36,953 nucleotides of DNA from an uncultured Mollicutes bacterium (lineage in GTDB: Bacteria; Bacillota_I; Bacilli_A; RFN20; CAG-826), in the NCBI GenBank assembly GCA_937893635.1, contig CALBGF010000009.1, positions 1-36,953 on the forward strand, written 5' to 3'. The stretch's first letter is position 1; each line of letters begins with the position of its first letter. The notes below the pieces were generated by a model. It had not been told where the DNA came from. It saw only the letters and a program-made list of their open reading frames with translations, and searched no databases. This document shows positions 8,082 through 31,941 of this stretch, in pieces. The translations under genes and the position numbers were made by a program.

Positions 8082-8094
8082 GAAAATTATTTTC
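8082..8094. promoter_or_regulatory. GAAAATTATTTTC palindrome, copy 1 (importer operon)
   Basis: Perfect 13-bp inverted repeat (GAAAAT-T-ATTTTC) in the divergent region between the deacetylase and the ABC permease. Its centre is 59 bp upstream of the first base of the -10 box at 8147, the same distance within one base as three other copies. Confidence 0.75.
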
Positions 8095-8123
8095 ATAGTT
8101 TTTGATTTATAGTAAAAATAATG

Positions 8124-8152
8124 TTGCAGGCATTTTATATTTATTATAAAAT
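8124..8152 (+). promoter_or_regulatory. Sigma-A-type promoter of the ABC importer operon
   Basis: TTGCAG (8124-8129), 17-bp spacer, TAAAAT (8147-8152). Predicted start near 8159, giving a leader of about 40 bases that contains a cre-like site. Confidence 0.6.
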
Positions 8153-8163
8153 TATCGTGTAAA

Positions 8164-8177
8164 TGAAAACGCTTTAA
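8164..8177. promoter_or_regulatory. cre-like catabolite operator (importer operon)
   Basis: TGAAAACGCTTTAA fits the CcpA consensus TGWAANCGNTNWCA at all but the C near the end. Its centre is about +12, a repressing position. Confidence 0.55.
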
Positions 8178-8198
8178 TTTTGTGTTAAGGAGGAAAGT

Positions 8199-9164
8199 AT
8201 GGTTTTTGCAAAGAAGAAAAAATTTAATCCTTTAGATAACTTAACCGATGAAGAAAAAATACTAGCTAAAAAGTCATATTGGCGTAGAAATATTTGTATT
8301 TTCATAATGATGATACCAATAGTTGTTTGGTTTTTAGTATTTGCTTATTGGCCACTTTATTATCTTCGCATGGCTTTTTATGATTATAAGTATTTAAAAG
8401 GCTTTGCAGGTTCAGAATTTGTAGGATTTAAATATTTTATTGAATTTTTCCAAAAAGGTGGATTGAAATATGTTTGGAATACATTAGCTATTAACTTACT
8501 AGCCTTAGTATTCTTATTTCCATTCCCAATTATCTTAGCTGTTTTATTTAATGAACTAAATAATGTGATATTTAAAAGGACAGCTCAAACAATATCATAT
8601 TTGCCACACTTCCTATCCACGACAGCATTAGTTGGTATTATTTATCTAGTATTTGATAGTGACGCCGCGGGTGGATTAATAAATCATATTTTGGTAAGTG
8701 TGTTTAACGTTAATCAACAAAACTTTTTATCAAGTAATGAATGGTTTAGATTTATTCAAGTTGTGTCGGGAATTTGGCAAACAGCTGGTTGGTCCACTAT
8801 TGTGTATACCGCAGCATTAACAGCGATTGATCCGCAACTTTATGAAGCCGCTCGTGTGGAAGGTGCTTCAAGATGGCATCAAATTGTAACTATTACTTTA
8901 CCAGCTTTAGTTCCAACAATATTGATAATGTTAACATTGCAACTAGGATCAATTATGGGTAGTAACTTTGATAAGATTCAGTTATTACAAAATCCGGGTA
9001 ATATTGAAGTTTCAGAAGTAGTCTTAACATTTATTTATGACCAAGGTATTAGAATGCCTGGTTATGGTACAGCAGTAGGACTACTAAATAGTGTCGTTGG
9101 CTTAATATTTGTTATTGCTTCAAATAGAGTTTCTAAAAAGATGGCCAATACATCAGTCTGGTAG
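8199..9164 (+). CDS. ABC sugar importer permease, LplB type
   Basis: A 321-residue integral membrane subunit of a CUT1-family carbohydrate importer. Hydrophobic helices start near residues 30, 90, 130, 200 and 245, with a last one near 290. The cytoplasmic EAA loop, which docks the ATPase, reads YEAARVEGASRW (from about residue 215). The N-terminus is a long basic cytoplasmic tail typical of LplB proteins. AAGGAGGA (8187-8194) precedes the ATG. First gene of the operon, followed 9 bases later by its partner permease and then the binding protein; no ATPase is in this operon, and two candidates lie in the 23004-31906 operon. Confidence 0.9.
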   Translation: MVFAKKKKFNPLDNLTDEEKILAKKSYWRRNICIFIMMIPIVVWFLVFAYWPLYYLRMAFYDYKYLKGFAGSEFVGFKYFIEFFQKGGLKYVWNTLAINLLALVFLFPFPIILAVLFNELNNVIFKRTAQTISYLPHFLSTTALVGIIYLVFDSDAAGGLINHILVSVFNVNQQNFLSSNEWFRFIQVVSGIWQTAGWSTIVYTAALTAIDPQLYEAARVEGASRWHQIVTITLPALVPTILIMLTLQLGSIMGSNFDKIQLLQNPGNIEVSEVVLTFIYDQGIRMPGYGTAVGLLNSVVGLIFVIASNRVSKKMANTSVW

Positions 9165-9172
9165 GTGATAGT

Positions 9173-10066
9173 ATGAAAGAATATAAAGCTAAAATGAAAG
9201 TTAAGAAGTCAGTTGGCGAACATATCTTTGATGCTGTTATCGTTATTATTATGTTGATTTTAATGGTAATGATCTTATATCCATTAATTCATTTAGTAGC
9301 GGTAAGTCTCTCTAATCCTGATTCTATTAGAAATGGCTCAGTAGGCTTAATACCAGTTGGATTTAACTTAGATGCTTATAAATTAATTTTAGGTGACAAA
9401 CAAATTTATGAAGCGTATGGTTCGACAATATTTGTTTGTGTTATGAACTGTATATTGTCACTTGTATTGTTATGTTTTGCTGCTTATCCATTAGCGTATG
9501 GTGATTTTAAATCAAAAGGTTTATTTTCTAAATTTATTATCTTAACAATGTTCTTGTCAGCGGGTATTATACCTAACTTAACAGTAATTAAAGCATTGCA
9601 TTTAGATGGTAGTTTATGGTCATTAATACTTACGGGTTTATTAAGTGCTTATAACATTATTGTTGTAAGAAGTTATTTTGAAGGATTACCAAAAGCACTT
9701 ATTGAATCTGCAAGAGTGGATGGTGCGAATGACTTCCAAATATTGTTTAGAATTATCATTCCTTGCTCTAAACCAATTCTTGCTACAGTCGCACTTTGGA
9801 TAATTGTTGCGCAATGGAATAGTTATATGTATCCACTTATTTATTTAGGAAATGAAAGTACAACATTACAAATTTATTTAGCTAATGCGATTAAAGATGC
9901 GGCGTCATTATATTCAAACAATGGTGGATTATTAATTGATGAAGCATTCTCAACTCAATTACGATATGCTGCAGTGGTATGTAGTATTATCCCAATACTT
10001 GTTATCTTCCCATTTGTACAAAAGTTCTTAGTTAAGGGCGTTACAGTGGGTTCAGTAAAAGAATAA
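9173..10066 (+). CDS. ABC sugar importer permease, YtcP/LplC type
   Basis: A 297-residue MalG-like membrane subunit, partner of the preceding permease. It has six predicted helices (first near 20-42, last near 265-285) and the EAA loop IESARVDGANDF starting about residue 177. The C-terminal FVKGVTVGSVKE ending is characteristic of the YtcP/LplC group. AGGTGA (9163-9168) serves as ribosome site and overlaps the previous stop. The pair would import complex oligosaccharides brought by the lipoprotein encoded next. Confidence 0.9.
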   Translation: MKEYKAKMKVKKSVGEHIFDAVIVIIMLILMVMILYPLIHLVAVSLSNPDSIRNGSVGLIPVGFNLDAYKLILGDKQIYEAYGSTIFVCVMNCILSLVLLCFAAYPLAYGDFKSKGLFSKFIILTMFLSAGIIPNLTVIKALHLDGSLWSLILTGLLSAYNIIVVRSYFEGLPKALIESARVDGANDFQILFRIIIPCSKPILATVALWIIVAQWNSYMYPLIYLGNESTTLQIYLANAIKDAASLYSNNGGLLIDEAFSTQLRYAAVVCSIIPILVIFPFVQKFLVKGVTVGSVKE

Positions 10067-10084
10067 AGAAAGGAAATTTAAATT

Positions 10085-11695
10085 ATGAAAAAGAAAAATT
10101 TAGTTTTGTTATTTGCGGGTTTATTATCAATCTCCCTTACTTCATGTAATGGAGGCGGTAATAATAAAAACAAAGTCGAACACCATAAAGAGGATTATTA
10201 TGAACACATTGATAATAATTATGATTTTTACTCACGTGATAAATTAACAATCACAATGATGTTACCAACCGAAGCTGGTTATTCTGATGCATTGATGAGT
10301 AAAGTAGAAGAAGCAACAAACACAAAAATAATTATCAAATCTTATAATAGTGATGCATACGCTAATGCGATTGTTGATTCATTCTCTAGTGCCAAAAACA
10401 TGCCAGATATTTATTGTCGTGTTCCAGATATTGAAGTATTTAAAGAACAAGACGCTGCTTATGAATTATATGATTTATTAATGCAATATGCTCCTGATTA
10501 TCGTAAAAACTTAAGTGTCGATGATTGGGTACAATTAACTGATGCAACGACACATGGTATTTATTCCATTTCTAATATTCGTGAACCAGAATATCAATTA
10601 TCTTATTTAATGCGTAAAGATTGGCTTAGCAAAGTTGCTAGTGAGTTATCATTTGAAGTTGATGTAAATAACCCATCATTTACTTGGGATCAATTCACTG
10701 AGGTATTAGAACATTTTAGAGATGATGATCCAAATGGAAATGGTAACAAAGACGAATTGCCATTTTCTGTAGAAAATATTTCTTATTTAAGATATTTATT
10801 TGGAATTAATACTTCCTATTATTTCACTAATGATAGCGATAATGGATATCAAGCAGTTGTTGATCATCAAAACTATAAAAAGTATTTATCATCAATTCAA
10901 GATTTATATGCTGGTAATTTATTAGATAACCAATATATTACCGCTAGTGTGGAAAGTTTAATGTCCGCAAATAAATTAGGGGCTTGTATCACTTATGCAG
11001 AATATGCTCAAACATCACTTAATTCTTTACGTGATCCAAATAACGAGAATCGTGTTCCTAATGCTGATTGGGTAAGTTTTAAATTAACTGGTCCAAAATG
11101 TCCAGATGGAAAAACTTATGATGGTGTTCCTTCTGCAGCAGGTTTAGTTCATGGCTTTGTTGTTTCTTCCACAGTTAGTGAAGAAAGAGCAAAAGAATTA
11201 GTAAGAATATTAAACTGGTTTTACCGCGAAGAAGGAGAAACTTTATTTAATTATGGTGTTAAAGATGTTCATTATACTGAAGTAAATGGTAAAAAAGTAA
11301 TTAAACAAGAATATGCATCATTTACTAATGCACGTTCTGCGGGATTATTATTCTCCGCTATGCCATTCCACTGGTTAAAAGATTCTTATATTCAAATGGT
11401 TACTGGTGGAAAGGATATTAGTGAATTAGATGCTGGACAAAAGGCGTTCTACAATGCTTTAGGTATTGATAAATTTAACTTCCAAAAGCAAGCTGTTTCT
11501 ATTAATACTAGTGAATGGAGTAGTAATTCTAAAACGTTAATGAATCAATTAAGTGCTTTTGAAGCAAATGTAATTAAAGGAAGCATTGATGATCGAAAAC
11601 TTGATAGTGAATTAGCTAAGATAGTTTCGGCTTTCTCTAAAGCAAGCAAAGAAGCTAATGAAGTATATTCAGAAATTTACGATATTTGTAAGTAA
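10085..11695 (+). CDS. Extracellular solute-binding lipoprotein (LplA-like)
   Basis: A 536-residue lipid-anchored binding protein of the importer. Lipobox LTSC ends at about residue 21, followed by a Gly/Asn linker. The size (over 500 residues) and the core segment TITMMLPTEAGYSDALMSKVEEATN match large family-1 LplA/YtcQ-type binding proteins, which bind oligosaccharides rather than monosaccharides. A DPNGNGNKDELP segment near 215-230 resembles the Ca-binding-like loop frequent in this group. It sits 18 bases after the permease, with GAAAGGA as ribosome site. Ligand cannot be told from sequence; the locus suggests beta- or galacto-oligosaccharides. Confidence 0.9.
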   Translation: MKKKNLVLLFAGLLSISLTSCNGGGNNKNKVEHHKEDYYEHIDNNYDFYSRDKLTITMMLPTEAGYSDALMSKVEEATNTKIIIKSYNSDAYANAIVDSFSSAKNMPDIYCRVPDIEVFKEQDAAYELYDLLMQYAPDYRKNLSVDDWVQLTDATTHGIYSISNIREPEYQLSYLMRKDWLSKVASELSFEVDVNNPSFTWDQFTEVLEHFRDDDPNGNGNKDELPFSVENISYLRYLFGINTSYYFTNDSDNGYQAVVDHQNYKKYLSSIQDLYAGNLLDNQYITASVESLMSANKLGACITYAEYAQTSLNSLRDPNNENRVPNADWVSFKLTGPKCPDGKTYDGVPSAAGLVHGFVVSSTVSEERAKELVRILNWFYREEGETLFNYGVKDVHYTEVNGKKVIKQEYASFTNARSAGLLFSAMPFHWLKDSYIQMVTGGKDISELDAGQKAFYNALGIDKFNFQKQAVSINTSEWSSNSKTLMNQLSAFEANVIKGSIDDRKLDSELAKIVSAFSKASKEANEVYSEIYDICK

Positions 11696-11698
11696 TTA

Positions 11699-13521
11699 AT
11701 GGTAACAAATATGTTTGAAATTTCTAATGGATTATTAATTAAAGATGGAAAACCGGTAATAGCGGTGGGTAGCCACTATTACCCTTCCTTTCATCCTTTA
11801 AAAGTTCCAGTTATAGACCATGCTAAACGAATAGAAGAAGCAAAAAAAGATATAAAAAGCATTAAAGAATTAGGATTTTCTTTAGTCCGTGTTGCTAGTA
11901 TTGGCGAATCTAAATTAGTTAATGATGTAATTATAAAAGATTTCACTTTTGTTGATGATTTAGTGGATTTAATTAGTCAAAATCAAATGGCGGCGCTCGT
12001 TAGAATTCAAGGATATAGTACAAATTTACGCGGTGTTGATAATGCTTTAATGAAAAATCAAGAAGGAAAAGATATTCCGCTTAAATGGGATTACTTTATT
12101 AGAAATTGTTTGAATAACAAAAGTGTTATTAAAGAAGATGAAGAGATAACAATATTATCCGCAAAACATTTTAAAGATAATAAAAATGTTATTGGATTTC
12201 AAATTTATAATGAGCCTGCTTATCCTTTTGATGGATTTTATGATTATAACGTTTATAGTGTTGAGGCTTGGAAGAACAAATTTCATAAAACAAAAAATCC
12301 TCCAACACATCGACCAACGAATAAGAAGATTTGAAAGATTGGCTATCATTTAGAAAATTCTCTAATGATTCTATGAATGATTATCTTGTTAAATTAGGTA
12401 AATTAACAAAAGAATATTCGAATAAACCAGCATTTACATGTTTAATGCCATGTGCAATTCAACAAGGAAGCGCAATTAGAGGATGTAATATGTTTAAAAT
12501 CGCTAAAGGTATGGATTTTTTAGGAATTACTATTTATATTTCTCCACTTGGAGTAACTGCTCGAGAATTTAGTCGTGCTATTGATATAACTAATGCTATT
12601 GCAAGATTAAATAATACGCATGCTTGGGCAATTGAGTGTGATGCAAGAGTGGATGCTTCCAAAAAAGAATATGAAATTATGATTTTATCTTTATTAGCGG
12701 GTGGATTTAAGGGAATATTACCTTATCAATATCGAGCGGATGCTAAATTACAAAATGCACCAGAGCCGGATAAATATGGAATTGTCTATAATGACTTAAC
12801 GGAAACTAAAAAATTTCAAATAGTCAAGAAAATGAACGAGTTTATTAATTCATTTTCAAATTATTTAGCAAGTTCAGAAGCTTTAAGACAAGATGTTGCC
12901 CTATATATGAGTGAAGATATTAATATATATCAAGACGCTATATATAATGGTGAGATTAATAATGCTTGGAAGTGCAAAGAACCAGTTTCATTATTTAGTA
13001 ATGTTATTTATAACAAATTAATCGATAAAGGATATTTGCCAAGATTTGTAGATATTAATAATTTAAAAGATGTAAAAGTATTATTAATTCCTTCAAGCAT
13101 GGGTATTAGTGATAACGAAAAGGAAATATTAAAAGATTTTGAGCTTAGTGGTGGCGTAGTTCGTGTATATAATCCACTTAACAATGGATTTGAAACATTT
13201 GATGAAACTAAATCAGAAACTTTACAAGATTTAATGACTAATAATCAATTTATGCCAATATATCAAACATTCGATGAAGATATATCACTTAAAATATTAA
13301 AAAACGAAAAAGAATATTTAGTGTTTGTAATTAATCATAATGCTAAATTGCTAGATAAAGATAACGTAATAATTGAATTACCTTTCTTAAATAAAAAGGC
13401 TTTTAGTTATGAAGTATGTTATCAAAATGAAGATGATAAAGATATAAGTTTTATAGGCGAGAAACTTGTACTTAAACACTTAACTAGTGGAATTATAATT
13501 CGCCTAAGAATTGAGGAATAA
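11699..13521 (+). pseudogene. GH42-like beta-galactosidase, frameshifted
   Basis: Two adjacent frames encode the halves of one clan-A glycosidase. The first (11699-12334) holds the barrel start (LIKDGKPVIAVGSHYYPSF) and an acid/base motif IYNEP (about E172). The second (open from 12325, first possible start TTG 12331, to 13521) holds WLSFRKFSNDSMN, a candidate nucleophile in WAIECDAR, the barrel end GGFKGILPYQYRADA and a Rossmann-like C-terminal domain (VKVLLIPSSMG). The halves join if one base is added near 12323: codons for N-K-E-D-L-K-D-W would then read through. From memory of the family, about 20 residues also seem missing before PPTHRPTN (near 12280). It is either an inactivated gene or a sequence error. 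If intact, about 600 residues, cytoplasmic. The start could also be ATG 11711; neither has a clear ribosome site. Confidence 0.7.
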
Positions 13522-13526
13522 ATTAT

Positions 13527-15359
13527 ATGAGTTTTATGTTTTCACCATTTCCGTATGATGATTTAAATGCGGTAAATCACGTTAATGTTAGCAAAAATGT
13601 AACAAATCAAATTCTAACTAACAATGAGTTAATTAAAAAAGAATTAACCGACAAATTATTTAATCATTCAAATAGAGTCCTAGTTATTGATGGTTACCCT
13701 ACTTGTAATTTTAATAGTTTAGTATCAATGTTTGAAGATGTTAAAACATTCAACATGCGTGATATCTATAAAAATGATGAAGAAATACATGATATGTTAA
13801 AAGCATATTTACCAGAAGATCGTGTCATGGATCCAGTTTTGTTATATGGTAAATTATTTACGGATGGTTTAAAGAAATTAATGGATGAAAATAAATTAAA
13901 TGATTTACTTACATCTATTAAAAATGAATCTAGTAAAGTAATTGTTTATGGACATGGTGCTTTAATTAAAGAGATTCGCGCTTTGGCGGACATAAAAATA
14001 TATATGGATGTTTCTCCAAAAGAAGCGGCGATTCGTGCTAAAAAAGGATTATATGTTAATATTGGTGATAAAAAAGCTCGACCATTTAAAGAATTAATGC
14101 GCCGTAATTACTATGTTGATTTTGAAAATGAAACATTATTAAGAAAAGAATTAGTGCAACAAAATGCACTAGATTACTATGTTTTTGGAGATCATGATGA
14201 TGCATTAACTATGGCACCATTTAGTGTTATGAATGTATTATTTGATGAATTAGTAAAAAGACCATTCCGCTGCAAACCTGTATACATTGAAGGTGTATGG
14301 GGCGGATTCTATATGATGCGTATGCGTAATTTACCAAAAACTATGAAAAACTGTGCTTGGATTTTTGATATGATTCCTAGTGAAGTTTCGGTAGTTATTG
14401 AATCAAATGATACGAAAATTGAAGTTCCGTATTATACATTCGTTCATGCGCGTGGCGTTAAATTAATGGGACAAGATTGTGTGAATTATTTCCATGGCTA
14501 TTTCCCAATCCGCTTTAATTATGATGACACATGGCATGCGAATGGAAATATGTCTATTCAATGCCATCCATATCATGACTATGTAAGAAAAGAAAATAAT
14601 GAATTAGGTCGTCAAGATGAATCTTATTACATTGTTGAGGCAGCAGAAGGCGCTAAAACATTCTTAGGTTTTAATGAAGATATTAATCCAGATGATTTTA
14701 TGAAAGAAGTATTTGAATCAGAAAAAACTGGTAAACCAATTGATTATTTAAAATATGTTAATGCTGTTACCTCTACTCCAGGAACACAAGTTTTAATTCC
14801 AGCTGGAACCATCCATTCTTCCGGTAGAAACCAATTAGTTCTTGAGATAGGTTCTTTAACTATTGGCTCATATACTTATAAACTATATGACTATATGCGT
14901 AAAGATTTAGATGGTAATCCACGTCCAATTCACTCAAGACATGGCGACAACGTCCTTCAAAAATACCGCAAAACTAATTGGGTTAATGAGCACATTGTAA
15001 GAAGAGCAAAAGGTTTTGATGACCATGATACAGTTTTAACGCAAACAGTTGGTGAAAGTCCATTATTATACTTTAAATTAATGACAACACAATTTTTAGA
15101 TAAATATGAAGATAATACTAAAAATTCTTTCCATGTATTAACTGTTACTAATGGTGAAAAGGTAAGAATTAGTTCTAAAAATAATCCAGAATATAACTTC
15201 GTGGCTAATTACTTGGATATTGTAGTAGTGCCACAAAATGTCGGTGAATATGTAGTGGAAAATTTAGGTAATCAACCAGTTACTATTCATAAGACATTAT
15301 TAAGAGAAGATTTCTTAGATGAACTTAATCAATACGAAAAAGCATTAAGTGAAAAATAA
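13527..15359 (+). CDS. manA: Class I mannose-6-phosphate isomerase with extra N-terminal P-loop-like domain
   Basis: A 610-residue cytoplasmic protein, about twice the length of a simple bacterial PMI. The C-terminal part (from about residue 250, VYIEGVWGG) is a type I cupin PMI, which interconverts mannose-6-P and fructose-6-P. Zinc-ligand motif QCHPYH is at about 345-350 (Q345, H347), and H430 is in IPAGTIHSSGRN. The N-terminal 240 residues look like a nucleotide/uridine-kinase fold: strand RVLVIDGYP (about 50-58), a second strand VIVYGHG, and IYMDVSPKEA. However, the P-loop reads GYPTCNFNSL, without GKS/T, so ATP binding is doubtful. GAGGA lies 9 bases before the ATG. It lets mannose, phosphorylated perhaps by the ROK kinase, enter glycolysis. 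Confidence 0.85.
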   Translation: MSFMFSPFPYDDLNAVNHVNVSKNVTNQILTNNELIKKELTDKLFNHSNRVLVIDGYPTCNFNSLVSMFEDVKTFNMRDIYKNDEEIHDMLKAYLPEDRVMDPVLLYGKLFTDGLKKLMDENKLNDLLTSIKNESSKVIVYGHGALIKEIRALADIKIYMDVSPKEAAIRAKKGLYVNIGDKKARPFKELMRRNYYVDFENETLLRKELVQQNALDYYVFGDHDDALTMAPFSVMNVLFDELVKRPFRCKPVYIEGVWGGFYMMRMRNLPKTMKNCAWIFDMIPSEVSVVIESNDTKIEVPYYTFVHARGVKLMGQDCVNYFHGYFPIRFNYDDTWHANGNMSIQCHPYHDYVRKENNELGRQDESYYIVEAAEGAKTFLGFNEDINPDDFMKEVFESEKTGKPIDYLKYVNAVTSTPGTQVLIPAGTIHSSGRNQLVLEIGSLTIGSYTYKLYDYMRKDLDGNPRPIHSRHGDNVLQKYRKTNWVNEHIVRRAKGFDDHDTVLTQTVGESPLLYFKLMTTQFLDKYEDNTKNSFHVLTVTNGEKVRISSKNNPEYNFVANYLDIVVVPQNVGEYVVENLGNQPVTIHKTLLREDFLDELNQYEKALSEK

Positions 15360-15397
15360 TTAATAAATAATTCTTAATAGCAAAGGAGGAATGATTA

Positions 15398-18300
15398 ATG
15401 AAAATAGCAAACAAATTATTCTTAACGGCATTATCTTTTTGTTCAATGATTATTGGCGCAGATGGCTTAAATTCATTTGCTAAAGAGCCAGTAATTGAAG
15501 TCAAAGCTAAAGAAAATATGTTAGATGGTGCGACTGTTTATCAAAGAATGTATGAAGATAACTTTGTTGATGGTGTAAATGTTGTTTGGAATACTAGTGA
15601 TTTATGTGGAAACGATACAGAAATTAAAAAAGATGGTAATGCTTCTTGGAAAGTAGAAGTAAATCCAGGTAATAGTTATGTGGAATACTATTGTGAATTC
15701 CCTCGAGTTATCGATTTCCGTCATGGTGACGCGGAAGGCACAGATTCAACATTTAAAAAAGTTGCTACCATTGAATTTGATGTTTATTTAGATTGTAATC
15801 CAGGTTGGTATAATTTCTTTTTACTTGAACATCGCGGTGAAGAATATAAAGATAAACCGATTAACCGCCAATATAATCGTTCATTTGTAACATTAGATAA
15901 ATATATTGATTATACTTTGCAAAAAACTTGGCAACATGTTCAAATTCCTGTTTCTGCTTTCTCTGCTTCTGGTAATAGAGCAAATGATACGGGAACGGCA
16001 TCAGAAAAATGTATGGTTGATTTAACTAATATTAGTGGTTTTGGTGTTTGCCATATGATTAATAATACAGGTGCTGGATATTTCTATTATGATAATATGG
16101 AAATTTGTTTAAATAATAAGCCTGACGATTATTTAGGATGTACTATGGTGCGTCCTGATGAATTTGAGCGCCTAGTTAAAAATAATACTATAAAAATGAC
16201 TCCAATTGATATATCAGCACTTGCAACAACAGCATTTACTGGTGGGGAAGGTAAAGGTTGGTCTGGTCAAGGAGCGGATAATGAACTAACTGGATTTGAT
16301 ATGTTTGGTGATGTGGATTTCCGTGGCATGAAATTTAATATTCTTGATCCTAATGATCATCAATTTACATCCATTGCTTTAGGAAGCAAAAATAATATGA
16401 ACATTCCTAAAAACTCACGTAATTTATATGTTGAATCAGTAGAAATACCAATCAACCAAAAAGCCGATGGATTATATATGATTCATAATACCGCTTGGGA
16501 TGGAAAAAGAGTGGCAAAATACACTTATAATTACGCTGACGGAACAAGTTCAACAACAGACATTATTAAAGGACGCGAAATTTACGACTGGTGGAAGAGT
16601 GATGAAAGCGATGTTTGTCCAATTCTTTGGTCAGGTAATAACAATGAAGCTAGTACATATTCGTTAGGTATTAAAGTAAATGTATTTTCTTTTGTTAATC
16701 CTAATCCAAATAAAACAATTAAATCGTTAACATGCACTATTGATTCTGATACAGCAGTTGATTTAATTGCCGGTATTACCGCTGTTGATTGTGGTGGCAA
16801 TGGATTATATATGCAATATTTAGAAAGTAAATTTAATCCAGATACAACTAATTGGTACAATTATGAATTACCTAATTATTCTGATTATGTTGGTAGTGCC
16901 TTAGATGTATCTTATTTATTAGATAAAAATATTGATGAAAATGGTTATATTACTACAAAAGGCGAGTATTTTGTTAATGAAAAAGATGAAGTAGTTAACT
17001 TTTGGGGAATAAATGTTTCAGGACAATCATTCTTTGGAACATCTAAAGAACAAATCGAATTATTAACTGATACTATTGCCGCAATGGGATATAATATGGT
17101 TCGTTTAATTGACTGGGATGCTGGTTTCTATTCTCCTAATATCTTTGGAAAAAATGGTAGTACTAGTGTGGTTGATTCAAATTCTTTAGATGAATTTAAT
17201 TATTTCTGGTATTGCTGTAAAGAACGTGGCATTTATATTGATATGGTAATGTTAGGTGGAAGATATGGTTCAACACTTAAATCAGTTGGTAGTTTTACTG
17301 ATGAAGAAATAAGTGATATTAGTAGTGGATTTAAATTTGAAACATATATTGACAGTCGTTTAGTTGATGGAACAAAAAGACTAGTTAAAGAAGTAATGAC
17401 AACTACTAATAAATATACAAATACCACTTTAGCGGAAGATAAAGTTTTAGCATTAATGGAAGTAGCAAATGAGAATAACTTAACGGATATGTATGGCTAT
17501 TACACTAGTAGCGAGCAATATGAATTTGTAAGTGATTCTTATAAATTAATGTTCCAAAATCGTTTTAATGAATGGTTATTAAAATTATATGGTAGTAATG
17601 ATGCATTAAAAGAAGCTTGGAAAGATAAGACTGGAACTGGATTAGTGGGATTATCACGTAAAGAAAATTGTGAAGAAGGAACTGTATTAATTTCTCAAAA
17701 TTATTTAGGATCTGATTATTCCGCACAAAGAATTAATGACACCTTCCGTTTCTTATATGAACTTCAAGTTAATTATTATGACGATATGTATAGTTGGGCA
17801 AAAGGTAGTGATGGACTTAATCTTCATGTTGGATTATGTGGAACAACGAACTTACCAACTGGAGATTTAAATGATTTATATGTAAATGCTGCTTATGATT
17901 ATATAGCAAGACACTACTACAAATCACATCCAACAACCGGTACAGAATTTGGTGTTGATACCGCAACTGGAACAGTTGGCTCAATGGTTGAGAGTATGAG
18001 TGGTAATATTTATGGAGATGCTGCTAAAGGAGATTTAGTTGGTAGTCCATATATCGTAAATGAAGCAAATGAAGCAGAACCGAATACTCATACTGCAGAA
18101 TATAATATTATGACTTCTGCAATATTCTCTTTACAAGGTTGGAGTGTATGTTCATTTAACTTATCAACTTCGCCATTAGATAGTCAAAGCAATATGATTA
18201 CTAATGCATTCCAATTTGTAAATCATCCTACTAGAATGGGAACGGCATCTTCTGCAGCACTTCTTTATTACTCACAAGCAATTGCTAAAAATAAAGAAAA

Positions 18301-19684: not shown

Positions 19685-19694
19685 GGGAGAGTTT

Positions 19695-20558: not shown

Positions 20559-20569
20559 GAGAATTAAAC

Positions 20570-21309: not shown

Positions 21310-21339
21310 ATATATAATTTGCTTTTGTTAAAAAAATTA

Positions 21340-21368: not shown

Positions 21369-21373
21369 TACTT

Positions 21374-21387
21374 TGTAATCGCTTACA
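21374..21387. promoter_or_regulatory. cre site (CcpA operator)
   Basis: TGTAATCGCTTACA matches TGWNANCGNTNWCA fully. It covers the predicted transcription start (centre about +6), so CcpA binding would repress. Confidence 0.75.
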
Positions 21388-22863: not shown

Positions 22864-22876
22864 GAAAATTATTTTC
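22864..22876. promoter_or_regulatory. GAAAATTATTTTC palindrome, copy 3
   Basis: Perfect copy; centre 59 bp upstream of the -10 box at 22929, upstream of the isomerase-kinase-phosphorylase operon. Confidence 0.78.
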
Positions 22877-22905
22877 TTTAAATGTCTAAAGTAATGAAAA
22901 AAATA

Positions 22906-22934
22906 TTGTAAGAAGTTTATATGATTGTTAAAAT
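22906..22934 (+). promoter_or_regulatory. Sigma-A-type promoter of the GH94 operon
   Basis: TTGTAA (22906-22911), 17-bp spacer, TAAAAT (22929-22934). Predicted start near 22941 and a leader of about 63 bases. Confidence 0.6.
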
Positions 22935-24293: not shown

Positions 24294-24311
24294 AAAGGTG
24301 ATGTAATTATT

Positions 24312-25730
24312 ATGAAAACAAAAATGCCAAAGATCGGAATTATCCTTGTTTCTCCTCCAAGATTTCATGATTTAGGAGTTGGAACGAAAAATGGACCTTA
24401 TTCAGAAAGAAAAGAAAAAGTAGCCCAAGAACTTTTAACGCATTTTGATTATGCTGAGACTATTTTCCCAGGAATTATTTATTCTAAAGAAGATATGGAA
24501 AAAGCTATTGTTCAAATGAAAAGCGAAGATGTTGATATGATTTTTGCTCATTTCTTATCATGGGCTGATGACTTTGCTTGGGTAAGATTTTTAAGAGATA
24601 TTGGTGATATGCCAATAATGTACGCTACTATCGTAAGAGATAAATTAGGATTTGAAAATTCATTTACTGAAGATTCATTTATTGAATTTTTAACAGCTGG
24701 TGGATTAGTAGGATCATTAGAAGGATCTGGCGATATTGCAAGATTAAAGAAAGGACAAGTAAAAATTGTTCTAGGCTCAAAAGAAGAAGTAATGTCGGCG
24801 TGTAAAGAAATGGCACAAATTTGTGCTTTACGCCATGAATTACGTCATAGAAGCATTGCATTACTTCCATCATTTAATGAAGCAATGTGGTCTACTTATG
24901 TTGATCCATATGATATATTTACTAAAATCGGTCCAGAAATTCGCTTCTTATCAATTGTAGAATTAAGCGAAATTATGGATGCTATTGACGATGAAGAATG
25001 TAATAAACTAACAAAAGAAATTTTATCTAAATATGAAGTTAAAGGAACAATTGATGAAGAAAAAATGGCAGCTTCAGTTAAAGGAAGTCTAGCTCTAGAA
25101 AAAATTGCTCGTAAATATGATTCAGAATTATTAGTATTAAATGATATTGATAAAGTCTTGCAACGCACAATAGGTTTAAGACCAGGATTTACACCATGTC
25201 CAGGCACTGATGATGTTTTAGTTGTTCCTGAAGGTGATATTGGTGCTGGTTTATGTGCTTATATTTTGAAAAAGTTAACATCACAACATGTTTCATTTAT
25301 TGAACCATTCCATATTGATGCTCAAACTGGTACATTTGCAGCGGGTCACGCTGGACCTAATGATTATACCGATGAATTAGGAAAAACGATGATTGCCACT
25401 GATACAAGATTTGCTAAATCTAATCTTAAATATGCCGGTGCGCCATTTGCTAACCATGTTTTCTCTCCAGGAGAAAAAACAATGATTCATCTTTCTGAAA
25501 ATAATGGTCGCTTTAAATTAGTTGCTACAACTGTAGAAGTATTAGAAAGTGATCATTTCTTAGATGGATATTCACATGGATTATTTAAACCTCATATGCC
25601 AGTAAATGAATTTTTCCAAAAGCTATTAGAAATAGGCGTAACTCAACACTATGCCATAACTGCGGGTAATTTATTAAGCAAAATGCGTCTTTTAGCGGAA
25701 ATAATGGGATTTGATTATTATGAAATTTAA
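24312..25730 (+). CDS. L-arabinose/L-fucose isomerase-family ketol isomerase
   Basis: A 472-residue cytoplasmic isomerase interconverting an aldose and a ketose. Four metal-ligand positions align with those known for E. coli AraA (E306, E333, H350, H450): E307 in VPEGDIG, E331 in FIEPFHID, H346 in AAGHAG and H446 in VTQHYAI. The N-terminal half is divergent from AraA, so the substrate may be L-arabinose, L-fucose, D-galactose, D-mannose or another aldose. There is no ribulokinase, fuculokinase or aldolase beside it; instead a ROK kinase overlaps its end by 11 bases, suggesting isomerisation then phosphorylation (or the reverse order) of one sugar. Confidence 0.8.
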   Translation: MKTKMPKIGIILVSPPRFHDLGVGTKNGPYSERKEKVAQELLTHFDYAETIFPGIIYSKEDMEKAIVQMKSEDVDMIFAHFLSWADDFAWVRFLRDIGDMPIMYATIVRDKLGFENSFTEDSFIEFLTAGGLVGSLEGSGDIARLKKGQVKIVLGSKEEVMSACKEMAQICALRHELRHRSIALLPSFNEAMWSTYVDPYDIFTKIGPEIRFLSIVELSEIMDAIDDEECNKLTKEILSKYEVKGTIDEEKMAASVKGSLALEKIARKYDSELLVLNDIDKVLQRTIGLRPGFTPCPGTDDVLVVPEGDIGAGLCAYILKKLTSQHVSFIEPFHIDAQTGTFAAGHAGPNDYTDELGKTMIATDTRFAKSNLKYAGAPFANHVFSPGEKTMIHLSENNGRFKLVATTVEVLESDHFLDGYSHGLFKPHMPVNEFFQKLLEIGVTQHYAITAGNLLSKMRLLAEIMGFDYYEI

Positions 25731-26592
25731 TTATGCATATTGCATTGATATGGGTGGAACTTTCTTAAAGGGAGCGATTACGGATTATAAAGGCAACTTA
25801 ATAACAAAAGTATATCAAGTTCCCGCTAATTCAGCTTCTTCACTAGATGATTATATCAATAGTTTTGCCACTATGTTTAAGAATTTAGAAATAGAGGCAA
25901 AAGAAAAGAATATTGATATAGAGTTTATTGCGCTAAGTATTCCAGGACCTTTTGATTATGAAAAAGGTGTTTCAAAAATGAGTCATAAATATCAAGCAAT
26001 ATATAATCTAGATTTAAAACAATTATTCTTAGAAAAATTAAATATAACAAAACCAATGTTTTTTGAAAATGATGTCATTTCATTTTTGCTTGGTGAATCA
26101 AAAGATATGGTTGATTTAGATAAAAAATCAATATGTGCAATTACATTAGGTACAGGATTAGGATATGTTGTTATGAATAAAAATGTGATTTTGCGTAATG
26201 ATTTAGGTTCTCCAAAAGAATATATCTATGATAAACCTTATAAAGATGGAATTATGGAAGATTATTTTTCCGCTCGCGGAATGATATATTTTTATAAACT
26301 AATGACAAATAAAAGTATAGAATCATCAAAAGCAATTAGCGATTTAGCTAAAAATGGTGATTATGAAGCGTTAGAAACTTTAAAGCAATTTGGTAAAGAA
26401 TTAGGACTAGGATTATTACCTTATTTAACCAAAAATAAAGTTAATGATCTTTATTTAGGCGGACAAGTTAGTAAAGCTTATCCTTACTTTTTAGAATCGC
26501 TTCAAAAAGAATTAAAAAATATAAATGTGCATGTATCACAAAATGAAAACAGTGCATTAAGCGGACTAGCAGTTCGTTTCTTTAATAGTTAA
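25720..26592 (+). CDS. ROK-family sugar kinase, divergent
   Basis: A 290-residue cytoplasmic kinase. N-terminal phosphate-binding motif DMGGTFLKGAI (about 9-19); catalytic Asp in FENDVIS (about D118); second phosphate motif TLGTGLGY. The family's usual zinc-binding CxCGxxGC motif is missing; that region reads LGSPKEYIYDKPYKDG. Start ATG 25720 gives the canonical N-terminus; a TTG three codons earlier lacks support. It overlaps the isomerase gene by 11 bases, so the two are coupled. Probable roles are phosphorylation of glucose, mannose or fructose set free by the glycosidases; mannose would then feed the PMI of the importer operon. Confidence 0.8.
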   Translation: MKFNYAYCIDMGGTFLKGAITDYKGNLITKVYQVPANSASSLDDYINSFATMFKNLEIEAKEKNIDIEFIALSIPGPFDYEKGVSKMSHKYQAIYNLDLKQLFLEKLNITKPMFFENDVISFLLGESKDMVDLDKKSICAITLGTGLGYVVMNKNVILRNDLGSPKEYIYDKPYKDGIMEDYFSARGMIYFYKLMTNKSIESSKAISDLAKNGDYEALETLKQFGKELGLGLLPYLTKNKVNDLYLGGQVSKAYPYFLESLQKELKNINVHVSQNENSALSGLAVRFFNS

Positions 26593-26607
26593 AGGAGAAT
26601 TTTACTT

Positions 26608-29028
26608 ATGAAGTATGGGTATTTTGATGATAAAAATAAAGAATATGTAATTACTACACCATTTACACCGTTACCTTGGATAAATTATTTAGGAAATAAG
26701 GACTTTTTCTCACTTATTTCTAATACCGCAGGTGGATATTCTTTTTATAAAGATGCCAAATTAAGAAGAATAACAAGATTCCGTTATAATAATGTTCCTA
26801 ATGATAATGGTGGAAGATTATTTTATATTGTTGATGGAGATACTAAGTGGTCACCAAGCTTTTTGCCACTTAAAACACCTTTAGATAGTTATGAATGTCA
26901 TCATGGGATAGGATATACAAAATTTATATCAACAAAAAATAATTTAAAAGGAAATTTAACTTGTTTTGTACCTTTAAATGATGCTTGCGAAATAAATACT
27001 CTTACTTTAACTAATAATTCAGATGTCGAAAAGAAAATAAAATTATTTTCAGCCGTGGAATTTTGTTTATGGAATGCTAGTGATGATAGTCAAAACTTTC
27101 AAAGAAATTATTCTACAGGTGAAGTTGAAATTGAAGAATGCGCTATTTATCATAAGACTGAATACCGTGAAAGAAGAAATCACTATAGTTTTTATTGCAC
27201 TAATGGCAAAGTTATTGGATTTGATAGTGATCGAGATACTTTCTTAGGAAAATTTAATAATTATGATAGTCCAATTGTTATTCAAAATAACAAGTGTACC
27301 AATTCTAAAGCCTCAGGTTGGTCTCCAATTGCATGTTTTGAAATAGAAGTCACTCTAGCGCCAAAAGAAGAAAAAACTATTAATTTTATATTAGGATATG
27401 TTGAAAATAAAGAAGAAGATAAATGGGATAAATTTGGAAACATTAATAAGCAAAAAGCCCATGAATTAATTAAAAAATATAATAATGAAGAAAATGTTCA
27501 AAAAGAATTAGATAACTTACATGCTTATTGGGAAGAATTGTTCTCTCATTTCCAAGTTCAATCAAGCGATGAACATGTAAATCGTATGGTCAACATTTGG
27601 AATCAATATCAATGCATGGTGACATTTAATATGTCAAGAAGTGCTTCTTATTATGAATCAGGTATTGGTAGAGGTATGGGCTTTAGAGATTCTTGCCAAG
27701 ATTTATTAGGATTTGTTCATATGATTCCTAATCGTGCAAGAGAAAGAATTATTGATATAGCTTCTATTCAAAAAGAAGATGGATCGACATATCACCAATA
27801 TCAACCATTAACTAAAAAAGGAAATTCTGATATTGGCGGAGGATTTAATGATGATCCACTTTGGTTAATCGCCGCGACTTATGCTTATGTAGCGGAAACT
27901 GGTGATTATTCAATTCTTAGTGAATTAGTGCCGTTTGATAATGATGAAACTAAAGCAAAGTCATTACTCGAACACTTAAAGTTAAGTATCAATTATACTT
28001 TAAACAATTTAGGCCCACATAAATTACCATTAATTGGACGCGCTGACTGGAATGATTGTTTAAATTTAAATTGCTTTTCTAAAGAGCCAGGAGAATCTTT
28101 CCAAACTTGTTCGAACTTTGAATCGCATAAAGCTGAATCAGTTTTTATAGCGGGTATGTTTGTTAAATATGGAAAAGAATATGTGGAAATATGTAAACAA
28201 TTAAATGATTTAAAAGAAGTTAGTAGAGTTTCAAAAGCTATTGAAGAAATGATAAATGCCGTTGAAACTTATGGATGGGATGGAGAATGGTTTATTCGTG
28301 CTTATGATGCTTTCTTAAATCCAGTAGGAAGTAAAGTCTGTGAAGAAGGTAAGATATTTATTGAACCACAGGGAATGTGCGTAATGGCGGGAATTGGTGA
28401 AAAAAACGGTCTTGCTAATAAAGCATTAGAAAGTGTAAAAAAACATTTAGATACAAAATATGGTATCGTTTTATTACAACCAGCTTATCAAACATATCAT
28501 TTAAATTTAGGCGAAGTTTCTTCTTATCCACCAGGATATAAAGAAAATGCAGGAATTTTCTGCCATAACAATCCATGGGTAAGTTGCGCAGAAGCATATA
28601 TGCGTCATGGTGATAGAGCTTTTGAAATATATAAGAAAATATGTCCTTCTTATATTGAAGATATTAGTGATATTCATAGAACAGAACCATATGTCTATTC
28701 CCAAATGATTGCTGGTATTGACGCTCCGCACTTTGGTGAAGCTAAAAACTCTTGGCTTACTGGTACTTCAGCGTGGACATTAGTAAATATTACACAATAC
28801 ATTTTAGGTATTATTCCAACACTAGAAGGATTAAAAATAGATCCAGTTTTACCTAATTCTATTAATGAATTTAAAATTGAAAGATTATATCGTGGTACTA
28901 GATACCATATTGAAGCAAAAAGAGGAAACAAATATTCGATGATTGTTGATGGAAAAGAGATAATCGGAAAAATTGTACCTTTAAGTGATAAAAAAGACGT
29001 AAATATAAAAATAACTTATGTTGATTAA
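26608..29028 (+). CDS. GH94 cellobiose phosphorylase
   Basis: An 806-residue cytoplasmic phosphorylase, the standard length of cellobiose phosphorylases (about 810). It splits cellobiose with inorganic phosphate into glucose-1-phosphate and glucose, saving ATP. The start [16 protein letters not shown] is typical. Core motifs are [33 protein letters not shown], the [11 protein letters not shown] segment and [11 protein letters not shown] (Asp near 480 is the family's catalytic acid). AAAGGAG stands before the ATG. It shares an operon with the ATPase, matching the known coupling of ABC cellodextrin uptake to phosphorolysis. Chitobiose or other GH94 specificities are less likely, since the [14 protein letters not shown] block matches cellobiose enzymes. 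Confidence 0.92.
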
Positions 29029-29045
29029 AAGAAAGGGTGATAGTT

Positions 29046-30203
29046 ATGCCAAATATTAAATTAATAAATATTAATAAGTATTATAGCAAAGACAATCATG
29101 TTGTTTATGACTTTAATTTAGATATTAAAGATAAAGAATTTATCGTGCTTGTTGGTCCTTCTGGATGTGGTAAATCCACAACTTTGCGTATGGTCGCTGG
29201 TCTAGAAGATATCACAAGTGGTGAGTTATATATTGATGACAAATTAGTTAATGATGTTCAAGCTAAAGACCGTGGCATATCTATGGTATTTCAAAGTTAT
29301 GCTTTATTTCCTAATTTATCAGTTAGAAGAAATATTAGCTATGGTTTAGAAATAAGAAAAGTTCCAACTGTAATTAAGAAAAAAGTGTATGACAAAAAAG
29401 AACATAAATTTGTAGAAAAAGAAGTTACAGTTATGCGTCATATGTCAAAAAGTGAAATCAATGAACGAGTTAATAAAGCGGCAAATATGTTAGGATTGAC
29501 CGAATATTTAGACCGTAAACCACGTGCACTATCTGGTGGACAAAAACAACGTGTGGCTTTAGGAAGAACAATAGTCCGTGATTCCAAAGTATTCTTAATG
29601 GATGAACCATTAAGTAACCTTGATGCTAAATTAAGAGTACAAATGCGTAAAGAAATTACTGATTTACATCATCGTATTGGCGCAACAACTATATATGTTA
29701 CTCATGATCAATTAGAAGCTATGACTATGGCGGATCGTATTGTTATTATGAATAAAGGTGTTGTGCAACAAATTGGTACGCCAGAAGAAGTATATAATAA
29801 ACCAAGTAATAAATTTGTAGCATCATTTATTGGTTCTCCAACCATGAATTTCTTTAATGCTTTAATTAATATTAAAGATAAGAAAGCAATTGTTGGTAAT
29901 CAAGAAATAAAATTAAATAGTAAAATTATTAATGCTTTAAAAGAATATGATAATAAAGAATTATGTTTTGGTATCCGTGCGGAAGATTTATCTATTACTG
30001 ATAAAGGTGAACTTGAAGCAGAAGTAACAATGATTGAATTATTAGGAAAAGATAGCATTATCCATGCAAAATTTGAAAATTATGATTTAGCAATTTATTG
30101 TGAAGAAGGATATAGTTTATCTGTTAATGATAAAATTAAATTTAATGTTGATTTAGAACGTATACATATTTTTGATGAATTTGAAAATACTATCAATTTA
30201 TAA
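29046..30203 (+). CDS. Second ABC sugar importer ATPase, MsmK/UgpC type
   Basis: A 385-residue CUT1 ATPase, paralogous to the one at 23004. Walker A GPSGCGKST, Q-loop FQSYALFP, signature LSGGQKQR (about 162-169), Walker B LMDEPLSNLDA, H-loop VTHDQLEA, C-terminal regulatory domain with IGSPTMNFF. It carries a shorter (about 25-30 residues) Lys-rich insertion before the signature, around KKKVYDKKEHKFVEKE, at the same place as the long insertion in its paralogue. Start ATG 29046 with AAGGG (29033-29037) 8 bases before; an earlier in-frame GTG (29037) overlaps that site. Two ATPases but one permease pair are visible in the window. Confidence 0.9.
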   Translation: MPNIKLININKYYSKDNHVVYDFNLDIKDKEFIVLVGPSGCGKSTTLRMVAGLEDITSGELYIDDKLVNDVQAKDRGISMVFQSYALFPNLSVRRNISYGLEIRKVPTVIKKKVYDKKEHKFVEKEVTVMRHMSKSEINERVNKAANMLGLTEYLDRKPRALSGGQKQRVALGRTIVRDSKVFLMDEPLSNLDAKLRVQMRKEITDLHHRIGATTIYVTHDQLEAMTMADRIVIMNKGVVQQIGTPEEVYNKPSNKFVASFIGSPTMNFFNALINIKDKKAIVGNQEIKLNSKIINALKEYDNKELCFGIRAEDLSITDKGELEAEVTMIELLGKDSIIHAKFENYDLAIYCEEGYSLSVNDKIKFNVDLERIHIFDEFENTINL

Positions 30204-30214
30204 TAGGAGTTATT

Positions 30215-31906
30215 ATGAGCAAGTTTAATAAGATTTTTTTGATGTTTTCTATTACGTTATTATTACCATCTTGTGAATTTATTTTTAATAGTTCTACTAG
30301 TGAAAGTACTTCAAATAAACCATCAATAAGTGCAAGTGATTCTAAAAATACTACCTCTATTGATAAATCGACATCTACTTTGCCTTCACCAAGCACTAGC
30401 GCTAGTTCATCTATTAATAAAATACTTGAAGTCACTTGGGAAGAGGAGCCAATAATATCTTCATATTATGGAGAAGAATTAGAGTTTTCTAATTATGGAA
30501 GAGTTAAAGTTAGTTATACTAATGGAACTGTTGAATATGTCAATTTAACTAAAAACAATTTAAAAACCAATCGTGCGAATATATATTCTTTAGAAAAACA
30601 AGTAATATATGCAGTATATGATGAGTACACATTAAAATTTGAATTTACATTAACAAAAAGAAGCACAAATTCTAGTGTTGTCTTTACTAAAAAATTAGGC
30701 GTTGGTTGGAATTTAGGAAATAGCTTTTCTTCTTTTATTGATGGATTTGATTATAAATCTAATACCGGTATTGTTACTGAATTAGGATTTGATGTTAATA
30801 ATATTGAGATGTTTTGCGAAGTCCGTGATCAACCTCAAAAGTTTCGTGGTAAGATTACTAAAAATACTATTAAAGCAGTTTATGATAAAGGTTTTAGGTC
30901 TATTCGCATCCCAATGAGTTGGTCTAACCATATGACTAATGGTAAGATTAATGAACAATGGATGAATAGAATACAAGAAGTGGTTGACTATATATATAAA
31001 GACTATGAAGATTTATATGTAATAATTACACTTATGGATGGAGTTAGAGGCTATGATTTATCAAATACTAACCGCACTAAAACAATGAATCTTGTACATA
31101 ATGTTTGGGAACAAGTATCAGAAACTTTTAAAGATTATGATGAAAGGTTAATTTTTGAAAATCTTAATGAGCCAATGTATAGTGATGAAATAAAGTGGGA
31201 TATGAATCCAACTGATAGCAAATATTCTAGTTTATATAAAGAAGCAAATAAAAATCTTATGGATTATAATCAAGAATTTGTTAATGTTGTTCGTGCTTCA
31301 AATAGCGAGAATAATAAAAATAGATACTTAACAATTAATACATATGGAAATATTCCAGAATATGCTTATGATTCTAGTATAAACGCCATTTCTAAATTTG
31401 AGTTTCCAACGGATTCTGCAACGGATAAATTATTATTTAACGGCCACGCCTATTATCCAAATTATTTCTGTTACCATAATTCAGATAACGGATATTATAA
31501 AGATGTGTGGGATAAAAATTCATCTGAAGATAAAAAAACATTAGATCAATTATTCACTAATCTTGAAAATAATTTTATTAAAAAAGGAATTGGTGTGATT
31601 ATATCAGAATGGGGAAGTATTGATCGAGATATTGATGGTCGAGATAAATGTCGAGAAGATCATGCTTATTATTATATGAAAAATGCCACACAAAAAAATA
31701 TTGCATGTATGGTTTGGGATAATGGGGCAATGTCAGGAAATGAGCATAGTGAAGCATTTGGTTTCTTAAACAAACATAAAGCATCTGGGTTATATGATAA
31801 TATGAAAAAGATGAGTTATGTCACGTATGAAAACGATACTTTGTGGTACCATGAAAATATTTTAAACCAAATTTTCCAAGGATTTAGTGATGGTAAGAGC
31901 GCTTAA
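30215..31906 (+). CDS. GH5 endo-beta-glucanase lipoprotein A
   Basis: A 563-residue surface lipoprotein. The signal peptide ends in a lipobox-like LPSC (about 17-20), then a Ser/Thr/Lys/Pro linker to about residue 70, then an Ig-like domain (about 72-150) and a GH5 barrel (about 165-555). Catalytic motifs: GWNLGNSF, IRIPMSW, acid/base E319 in ENLNEP, nucleophile E465 in ISEWGS, then MVWDNG. The pattern resembles GH5 subfamily 4, which includes endoglucanases, lichenases and xyloglucanases. It probably cuts beta-1,4-glucan chains at the surface. It is the last gene of the operon; AGGAG precedes the ATG, and the terminator stem overlaps its final codons. Closest relative in the window is the 35226 gene. 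Confidence 0.88.
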   Translation: MSKFNKIFLMFSITLLLPSCEFIFNSSTSESTSNKPSISASDSKNTTSIDKSTSTLPSPSTSASSSINKILEVTWEEEPIISSYYGEELEFSNYGRVKVSYTNGTVEYVNLTKNNLKTNRANIYSLEKQVIYAVYDEYTLKFEFTLTKRSTNSSVVFTKKLGVGWNLGNSFSSFIDGFDYKSNTGIVTELGFDVNNIEMFCEVRDQPQKFRGKITKNTIKAVYDKGFRSIRIPMSWSNHMTNGKINEQWMNRIQEVVDYIYKDYEDLYVIITLMDGVRGYDLSNTNRTKTMNLVHNVWEQVSETFKDYDERLIFENLNEPMYSDEIKWDMNPTDSKYSSLYKEANKNLMDYNQEFVNVVRASNSENNKNRYLTINTYGNIPEYAYDSSINAISKFEFPTDSATDKLLFNGHAYYPNYFCYHNSDNGYYKDVWDKNSSEDKKTLDQLFTNLENNFIKKGIGVIISEWGSIDRDIDGRDKCREDHAYYYMKNATQKNIACMVWDNGAMSGNEHSEAFGFLNKHKASGLYDNMKKMSYVTYENDTLWYHENILNQIFQGFSDGKSA

Positions 31907-31921
31907 AAAACGCTCTTTTTT
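31895..31921 (+). terminator. Terminator overlapping the end of GH5 gene A
   Basis: AAGAGCG (31895-31901) and CGCTCTT (31911-31917) form a stem whose left arm lies in the last codons of the gene; the T run extends to about 31921. Confidence 0.85.
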
Positions 31922-31928
31922 ATTGCAT

Positions 31929-31941
31929 GAAAATTATTTTC
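31929..31941. promoter_or_regulatory. GAAAATTATTTTC palindrome, copy 4
   Basis: Perfect copy upstream of the large surface protein; centre 60 bp upstream of the proposed -10 at 31995. Confidence 0.75.

Follow-up and report, generated by a model that had tools for sequence, protein, structure and literature searches.

The regulatory arrangement described here has its closest published counterpart in the pneumococcal NanR (SpNanR), a regulator of the RpiR family. At the promoters of nan operon-I and of siaA, the binding site of SpNanR is reported to lie about 55 bp upstream of the -35 box; a degenerate half palindrome follows about 23 bp further on, and a catabolite responsive element (cre) covers the -35 box (PMC12713135). 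As cited in the same preprint, induction is lost without NanR, and the pneumococcal regulator has been described as appearing to be an activator (PMC3509027). NanR from Clostridium perfringens, likewise an RpiR protein, shifts promoter fragments of nanI and nanE in gels, and these promoters have in common an element of the consensus GAAAAATATTTTC, which the authors call a 14-bp element and print with 13 letters; that NanR recognizes this element is their suggestion (PMC4509764). Furthermore, ClaR and GlaR of Lactococcus lactis and, as cited, GlvR of Bacillus subtilis are RpiR-family activators of sugar operons (PMC6528599, PMC4286628). The present analysis concerns a stretch of 36,953 nucleotides from an uncultured Mollicutes bacterium (contig CALBGF010000009.1, assembly GCA_937893635.1), which is called the window in the following and always refers to the stretch at its full length. 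In the window, the 13-bp palindrome GAAAATTATTTTC stands at a fixed distance upstream of four predicted promoters, and, judged by sequence comparison, it is very probably bound by the RpiR protein which is encoded in the first of the four transcription units.

The palindrome occurs in four exact copies, at 8082..8094 (centre 8088, before unit 1), 21297..21309 (centre 21303, before unit 2), 22864..22876 (centre 22870, before unit 3) and 31929..31941 (centre 31935, before unit 4), and nowhere else in the window. All four copies, which carry no strand, are intergenic, each of them precedes a transcription unit, and the DNA flanking them is unrelated. No other 13-mer reaches four copies on the plus strand. 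In 2000 dinucleotide shuffles of the 1070 intergenic bases GAAAATTATTTTC did not appear once, and the more general form GAAA-N5-TTTC reached at most two copies in any shuffle; in three of the 2000 shuffles a different 13-mer attained four copies. With regard to the spacer between the two arms, GAAA-Nk-TTTC with k = 5 is present in four intergenic copies and one coding copy, and none of the other spacers between 0 and 12 yielded an intergenic copy in the window. When up to two mismatches were allowed, the window contained 25 matches to GAAAATTATTTTC, a number reached in one of 100 shuffles; this count is inflated, as the motif is almost identical to its own reverse complement. A candidate fifth site at position 335 (one mismatch) was dropped, since the three best promoters at this place did not show the fixed distance. 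A CodY box was rejected as well, as its arms are oriented the opposite way.

Promoters were predicted with a sigma-A weight matrix by scoring every pair of -35 and -10 boxes downstream of each palindrome. The best-scoring promoters of the four regions, all on the plus strand and all with a spacer of 17 bp, are TTGCAG-17-TAAAAT (8124..8152), TTGATA-17-TATAAT (21340..21368), TTGTAA-17-TAAAAT (22906..22934) and TTGAAA-17-TACTTT (31972..32000), the -10 box of the last one being poor. The distance from the centre of the palindrome to these top-scoring -35 boxes is 36, 37, 36 and 37 bp, the distance to the first base of the -10 box is 59, 60, 59 and 60 bp, and the gap between the end of the palindrome and the -35 box measures 29, 30, 29 and 30 bp. 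None of 2000 shuffles equalled the observed sum or the observed minimum of the promoter scores at any common distance. Relative to the predicted promoters, and by the usual numbering, the centre of the palindrome is thus located at about -71.5. It overlaps neither the -35 nor the -10 box of any of the four promoters and lies on one face of the DNA. The preliminary description of this DNA had claimed four exact intergenic palindromes, the distances of 59-60 bp to the -10 box and 29-30 bp to the -35 box with a site near -71, and an upstream geometry of the activator type. The exact search of the whole window bore out the first claim, the numbers proved correct against the predicted promoters, and the fixed position of about -71.5 supports the third.

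Each of the four promoters carries a further element directly upstream of its -35 box. At promoters 1 and 2 this is an A-tract (8113..8119 and 21330..21336, both on the plus strand), of which the first could be a UP element or a degenerate half-site. At promoters 3 and 4 it is TGAAAAAAAT (22895..22904 and 31960..31969, plus strand), which contains a TGAAA 32 bp past the first G of the respective palindrome and adjoins the -35 box. A run of five A within 14 nt upstream of the -35 box is present in all four promoters, while only four of 20,000 mononucleotide shuffles were as good; this test was devised after the run had been noticed. The A-tract or TGAAA beside the -35 box may act as a half-site, as a UP element or as both. 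The AT-rich nature of the DNA and the A-tract before each -35 box raise the question whether the palindromes themselves are nothing but AT-rich upstream promoter DNA, either UP-like or curved, that was copied together with the promoters and is not specific for any protein. This appears highly improbable. The copies show no similarity in their flanking DNA, and in 196 genomes from the order of G048, which is possibly related to the source of the window, the exact motif followed by TTG at the window distance was not found above the control (8 matches vs. 15 in the reversed control, the latter added by eye). In addition, such an origin would leave unexplained the exact dyad with its G and C ends as well as the enrichment of the 5-bp spacer at RpiR genes.

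The candidate for the binding protein is encoded in unit 1. The rpiR gene (19671..20558, plus strand, with a possible later in-frame start at 19695) codes for a protein with an N-terminal HTH_6 domain (PF01418, 1.4e-16) and a C-terminal SIS domain (PF01380, 1.9e-18). The window contains 30 open reading frames (ORFs) of at least 80 amino acids, of which 25 were scanned with Pfam, the other five lying over or opposite longer frames, and the RpiR protein is the only DNA-binding regulator among the scanned ones. Whether the motif has the form of an RpiR operator was assessed independently of the window by counting intergenic GAAA-Nk-TTTC in 44 loci around RpiR relatives with about 30-40% identity (L002-L031, among the matches listed, 12 loci from a search of 395 genomes and two from a search of 245 genomes). 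A spacer of 5 was found at 30 intergenic sites, distributed over 23 of the 44 loci, compared with 1-10 sites for each of the other twelve spacers; counting only distinct contexts, the numbers are 30 and 1-9. The control comprised 50 loci with lower scores (L032-L081), where the match is mostly confined to the SIS part, although L032 and L035 extend into the HTH part; here a spacer of 5 occurred seven times and the other spacers two to nine times. By this enrichment at the loci of RpiR relatives, the motif of the window has the operator form of the RpiR family. RpiR as the binder is also supported by the DNA-facing residues. For the solved complex of pneumococcal NanR with DNA nine residues are named at the DNA, of which A52 points into the groove without a contact (PMC12713135). 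Seven of the nine (S50, A52, T55, R56, K59, Y66 and R67) could be aligned, and each of these seven has an identical counterpart in the RpiR protein of the window (S56, A58, T61, R62, K65, Y72 and R73), while Thr18 and Leu20 fall outside the alignment. Moreover, the NanR-associated element GAAAAATATTTTC differs from the motif of the window in one base.

A different regulator encoded elsewhere, for example one of the Fur type, might bind the palindrome instead, and indeed the predicted Fur-type sites TGAAAATtATTTTCA and TGAAAATaATTTTCA of Desulfovibrio contain the same 13-mer (PMC545781). Nevertheless, the targets in the window are sugar genes that include a gene for an RpiR protein, GAAA-N5-TTTC is over-represented near RpiR genes with no such excess in the control loci, and for a repressor of the Fur type one would expect a site that overlaps the promoter. 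No iron gene was recognized among the 25 scanned ORFs. Taken together, a regulator other than RpiR is rather improbable.

Close relatives of the RpiR protein (P0002-P0006) share 60-92% identity with it. Other single proteins of the window show a moderate likeness (43-59% identity) by which the organism may belong near the small-genome Bacilli. Searches of 395, 245 and 23 genomes at an E-value of 1e-40 and of four genomes at 1e-30, in sets that overlap, yielded nothing above 38% identity; among the 245 genomes, which belong to the order of G048, no close ortholog was found at 1e-40. A contig-wide search gave relatives of at most 40% identity among the matches listed, viral contigs contributed one distant match, and a plasmid collection had no match by DNA. 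A partial likeness to the gene content of the window was observed in three genomes of one order (L105-L107), with genes for RpiR and MalK-like proteins in L105 and L106 and for MalK-, ROK- and ManA-like proteins in L107. These three loci do not contain the exact 13-mer, and a single intergenic GAAA-N5-TTTC is present, at position 7903 of L105.

A rigid layout of operator and promoter was also found outside the window. When 29 site-directions from the 30 spacer-5 sites were scored, several relatives had their -35 box, sometimes that of the second-scoring promoter, 65-67 bp away from the centre of the operator, and in these relatives a TGAAA lies 41-43 bp past the first G of the operator. Across all 60 directions of the 30 sites, 42 was the top offset of TGAAA, with eight cases. 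The operator with TGAAA at 41-43 bp was then used as a search pattern, which did not include the distance to the -35 box. In 186 genomes from the order of G003 (a record titled Erysipelotrichaceae) it gave 96 matches in 55 genomes vs. 22 in the reversed control (summed by eye), with 15, 64 and 17 matches at offsets 41, 42 and 43, respectively. Thirty of the 96 matches were taken as loci (L114-L143), and 22 were left after eight had been dropped (seven with offset 41 or 43 and one with a short flank). In these loci GAAA-N5-TTTC is followed 42 bp on by TGAAA and, 66 bp from the centre, by a -35 box that often reads TTTACA or TTTACT. Eighteen of the 22 were intergenic, and in 16 of these the best predicted promoter had its -35 box at a distance of 65-66 bp, while no such peak was visible in the opposite direction; four of the 22 were called coding, one of them also with a -35 box at 66 bp. 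Four of the 18 (L115, L117, L120 and L136) repeat the matched letters of earlier promoters, and 13 of the 14 others fit the layout. As the cases come from related species, they are not independent. An RpiR frame is present in nine of the 30 loci, and ten scanned downstream genes comprised six of glycoside hydrolase family 1 (GH1), two for mannose-6-phosphate isomerases, one for a nitroreductase and one without a match. Compared with this layout the window has a shorter register, with 36-37 instead of 66 bp to the -35 box, i.e., the site is about 30 bp closer.

The rounded figures for SpNanR would translate to about 64 bp from the site to the -35 box and to an offset near 41, which is close to the 66 and 42 bp found here. 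As the layout in Erysipelotrichaceae-type genomes is close to that of SpNanR, upstream phased RpiR sites are a recurring arrangement, which activates where others have tested it. With this background, the most convincing explanation for the window as a whole, and one that we regard as likely, is that the palindrome serves as operator for the RpiR protein from unit 1, which activates all four promoters in response to a sugar phosphate and is overridden by CcpA. What the sequence itself displays are the sites, their distances, the form of the operator, the conserved residues and the cre-like boxes; binding, ligand and oligomeric state are inferred, as is activation, which is deduced from the position of the sites. 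An RpiR dimer would sit on each palindrome near -71.5, with its SIS sensor domain binding a phosphorylated sugar derived from the imported oligosaccharide. The protein would probably form a tetramer, so that a second DNA-binding pair could reach the A-tract or half-site beside the -35 box, and it would aid the RNA polymerase at the four promoters, most likely via the C-terminal domain of the alpha subunit. Activation would raise the levels of the importer, the surface proteins, the cellobiose phosphorylase, the kinase, the glucanases and RpiR itself; as rpiR lies in unit 1, activation would be self-reinforcing (positive feedback).

The proposed override concerns cre-like boxes, three of which, all on the plus strand, are located at promoters: just downstream of promoter 1 (8163..8177, one mismatch), at the expected transcription start of promoter 2 (21373..21387, no mismatch) and over the -35 box of promoter 4 (31972..31986, one mismatch). 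Promoter 3 has no cre-like box within one mismatch. Repression of the CcpA type at these three promoters would prevail as long as better sugars are available. The whole window has six cre-like boxes with no more than one mismatch, including these three.

Alternatively, the RpiR protein might bind the palindromes and repress, for example as a tetramer that bridges two palindromes or a palindrome and a half-site at the -35 box and that is released by the sugar phosphate. Repression on paired sites is described for the RpiR proteins MurR of Escherichia coli and NanR of Vibrio vulnificus (PMC12713135), and in the window the TGAAA of promoters 3 and 4 adjoins the -35 box, while promoter 2 is strong enough to require restraint. 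However, the full palindromes are located 29-30 bp upstream of the -35 box, which is a poor spot for blocking the polymerase, the exact TGAAA is restricted to two of the four promoters, and a related fixed layout activates in the pneumococcus. Repression is consequently regarded as unlikely, although with a better standing than the other alternatives. The favoured activation by RpiR itself has to face several observations that weigh against it. In L011, L086 (site 107), L006 and L019 the operator lies at or over the best-scoring predicted -35 box, whose TTGAAA belongs to the palindrome or to the following TGAAA, which looks like repression or autoregulation. Promoter 2 matches the consensus at 11 of 12 positions, so that an activator is perhaps not needed there. 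The distance of -71.5 differs from the one shared by the pneumococcus and the Erysipelotrichaceae-type genomes, the centre of the SpNanR palindrome comprises 4 bp and that of the window 5 bp, and two of the four promoters of the window have an A-tract in place of an exact TGAAA. Cre-like matches with up to two mismatches are not enriched in the window (55 vs. a chance mean of 62.7). To these points belong also the low identity of the RpiR relatives from which the operator form was derived, the Desulfovibrio sites and the absence of a second promoter set with the compact register, which showed no excess among the 196 genomes mentioned above.

The preliminary description had named the RpiR protein as the binder, as the single DNA-binding regulator and as a product of one of the units, and it had linked the four units in a regulon. 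The operator form of the family, the conserved DNA-facing residues and the near-identical NanR-associated element support the first of these claims, the scan of the 25 ORFs agrees with the second, and the regulon is likewise supported. In contrast, its view of an RpiR activator as an unusual mechanism does not hold, as GlvR, ClaR, GlaR and pneumococcal NanR are precedents.

The gene content of the four units, all of which are encoded on the plus strand, fits with uptake and phosphorolysis of beta-glucan oligosaccharides, as it includes an importer, a GH94 enzyme, a ROK kinase and GH5 genes. Unit 1 (8199..21253) encodes two ATP-binding cassette (ABC) permeases, a pair of GH42-like frames, a ManA-like protein, a surface protein of 1428 amino acids, RpiR and a polysaccharide deacetylase, and in addition a lipoprotein resembling a binding protein, with a Pfam match below the cut-off. 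Unit 2 (21402..22808) consists of a surface protein of 468 amino acids without a Pfam match. Unit 3 (23004..31906) encodes a MalK-like ATPase, an isomerase-like protein, a ROK kinase, the GH94 enzyme, a second MalK-like ATPase and a GH5 glucanase lipoprotein, and unit 4 (32026..36824) a surface protein of 1040 amino acids (Big_3) and a GH5 enzyme. The best solved relatives of the GH94 enzyme are cellobiose phosphorylases, and for one of the two GH5 enzymes a comparison with solved structures gave a beta-1,3-1,4-glucanase and endoglucanases as the nearest relatives. The ligand of RpiR might thus be a sugar phosphate from the beta-glucan oligosaccharide pathway.

Some genes of the units and their surroundings deserve separate mention. 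The adjacent frames 11699-12334 and 12331-13521 of unit 1 correspond to the two halves of a GH42-like glycosidase, so that a single gene seems to have been split by a frameshift or an assembly error. The surface protein of 1428 amino acids (15398-19684), which lies within the regulated unit 1, has a C-terminal membrane anchor (assigned by eye) and no match in Pfam or NCBIfam. Both MalK-like ATPases (23004-24293 and 29037-30203) are encoded in unit 3, while the window has one pair of permeases only; the first of the two ATPases carries a long insertion (seen by eye). The isomerase-like protein (24312-25730, 472 amino acids) shows weak matches only, to the sulfoquinovose isomerase SftI and to arabinose isomerase; no solved relative was found by sequence, and a search of 395 genomes at 1e-60 gave no match. 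Upstream of unit 1, for a divergent deacetylase gene (7194-8045, minus strand), a weak promoter is predicted on the minus strand; its -35 box abuts the palindrome at 8082, so that one site could repress the deacetylase gene while activating unit 1.

Class I activators such as CRP act from sites at -61.5 or -71.5. The window shares with this type the site at about -71.5, its location on the same face of the DNA in four promoters and a -35 box that is not overlapped; a class I mode, i.e., a contact with the alpha C-terminal domain, is suggested here by the position. With GlvR, ClaR and GlaR the RpiR protein of the window has in common the family and the association with sugar uptake and use, and these three are positive regulators, some of them together with CcpA control; in the accessible parts of the sources, no operator of the form found in the window and no fixed position is described for them (PMC6528599, PMC4286628). 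These activators also contradict the statement of the SpNanR preprint that every RpiR regulator other than SpNanR is a repressor (PMC12713135). RpiR activators as such are thus already published, and it is the fixed promoter layout that is new: neither the spacer-5 rule nor the layout of 66 and 42 bp, nor RpiR together with the exact motif of the window, was found in searches of open-licence full texts. Among the papers that contain the letters of the motif, the only bacterial one is that with the Fur-type sites (PMC545781), while the others belong, by their titles, to neuroscience and cell biology. The element from C. perfringens is, like that of the window, a palindrome of 13 letters, and an RpiR protein binds two promoters which carry it. 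It belongs, however, to a different pathway and is located near transcription starts, with no fixed distance reported in the accessible part of the paper (PMC4509764).

GAAA-N5-TTTC provides a usable operator rule with which sugar regulons can be annotated in comparable uncultured bacteria. With regard to the mechanism of RpiR activation, the SpNanR preprint hypothesizes a tetramer that bridges to a half-site, and the recurring layout, which is precise to the base pair, together with the shorter register of the window turns this proposal into simple spacing experiments. SpNanR and the window are alike in having an RpiR regulator, an upstream near-palindrome with GAAA...TTTC arms and a cre box at the promoter. 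They differ in their genes, which are sialic acid genes for SpNanR and a cluster for cellulose sugars in the window, and in the distance of the site to the -35 box (about 55-59 vs. 29-30 bp). The second element is a degenerate half palindrome beside a UP element for SpNanR, and TGAAA (promoters 3 and 4) or an A-tract (promoters 1 and 2) in the window. It can be proposed tentatively, with slightly more doubt than trust, that RpiR activators of the Firmicutes share a rigid grammar, in which a full 13-bp operator and a weak half-site that is whole helical turns closer are read by a ligand-stabilized tetramer, which brings one of its DNA-binding domains next to the polymerase. Two or more registers of this grammar would exist: 66 bp with the half-site at 42 in the Erysipelotrichaceae-type genomes and, by the published figures, in the pneumococcus, and the compact one of the window, where 36-37 bp are combined with a half-site or A-tract at 32. 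The rigid layout of the Erysipelotrichaceae-type genomes, itself new, resembles the published pneumococcal one, and the window has a compact version of it.

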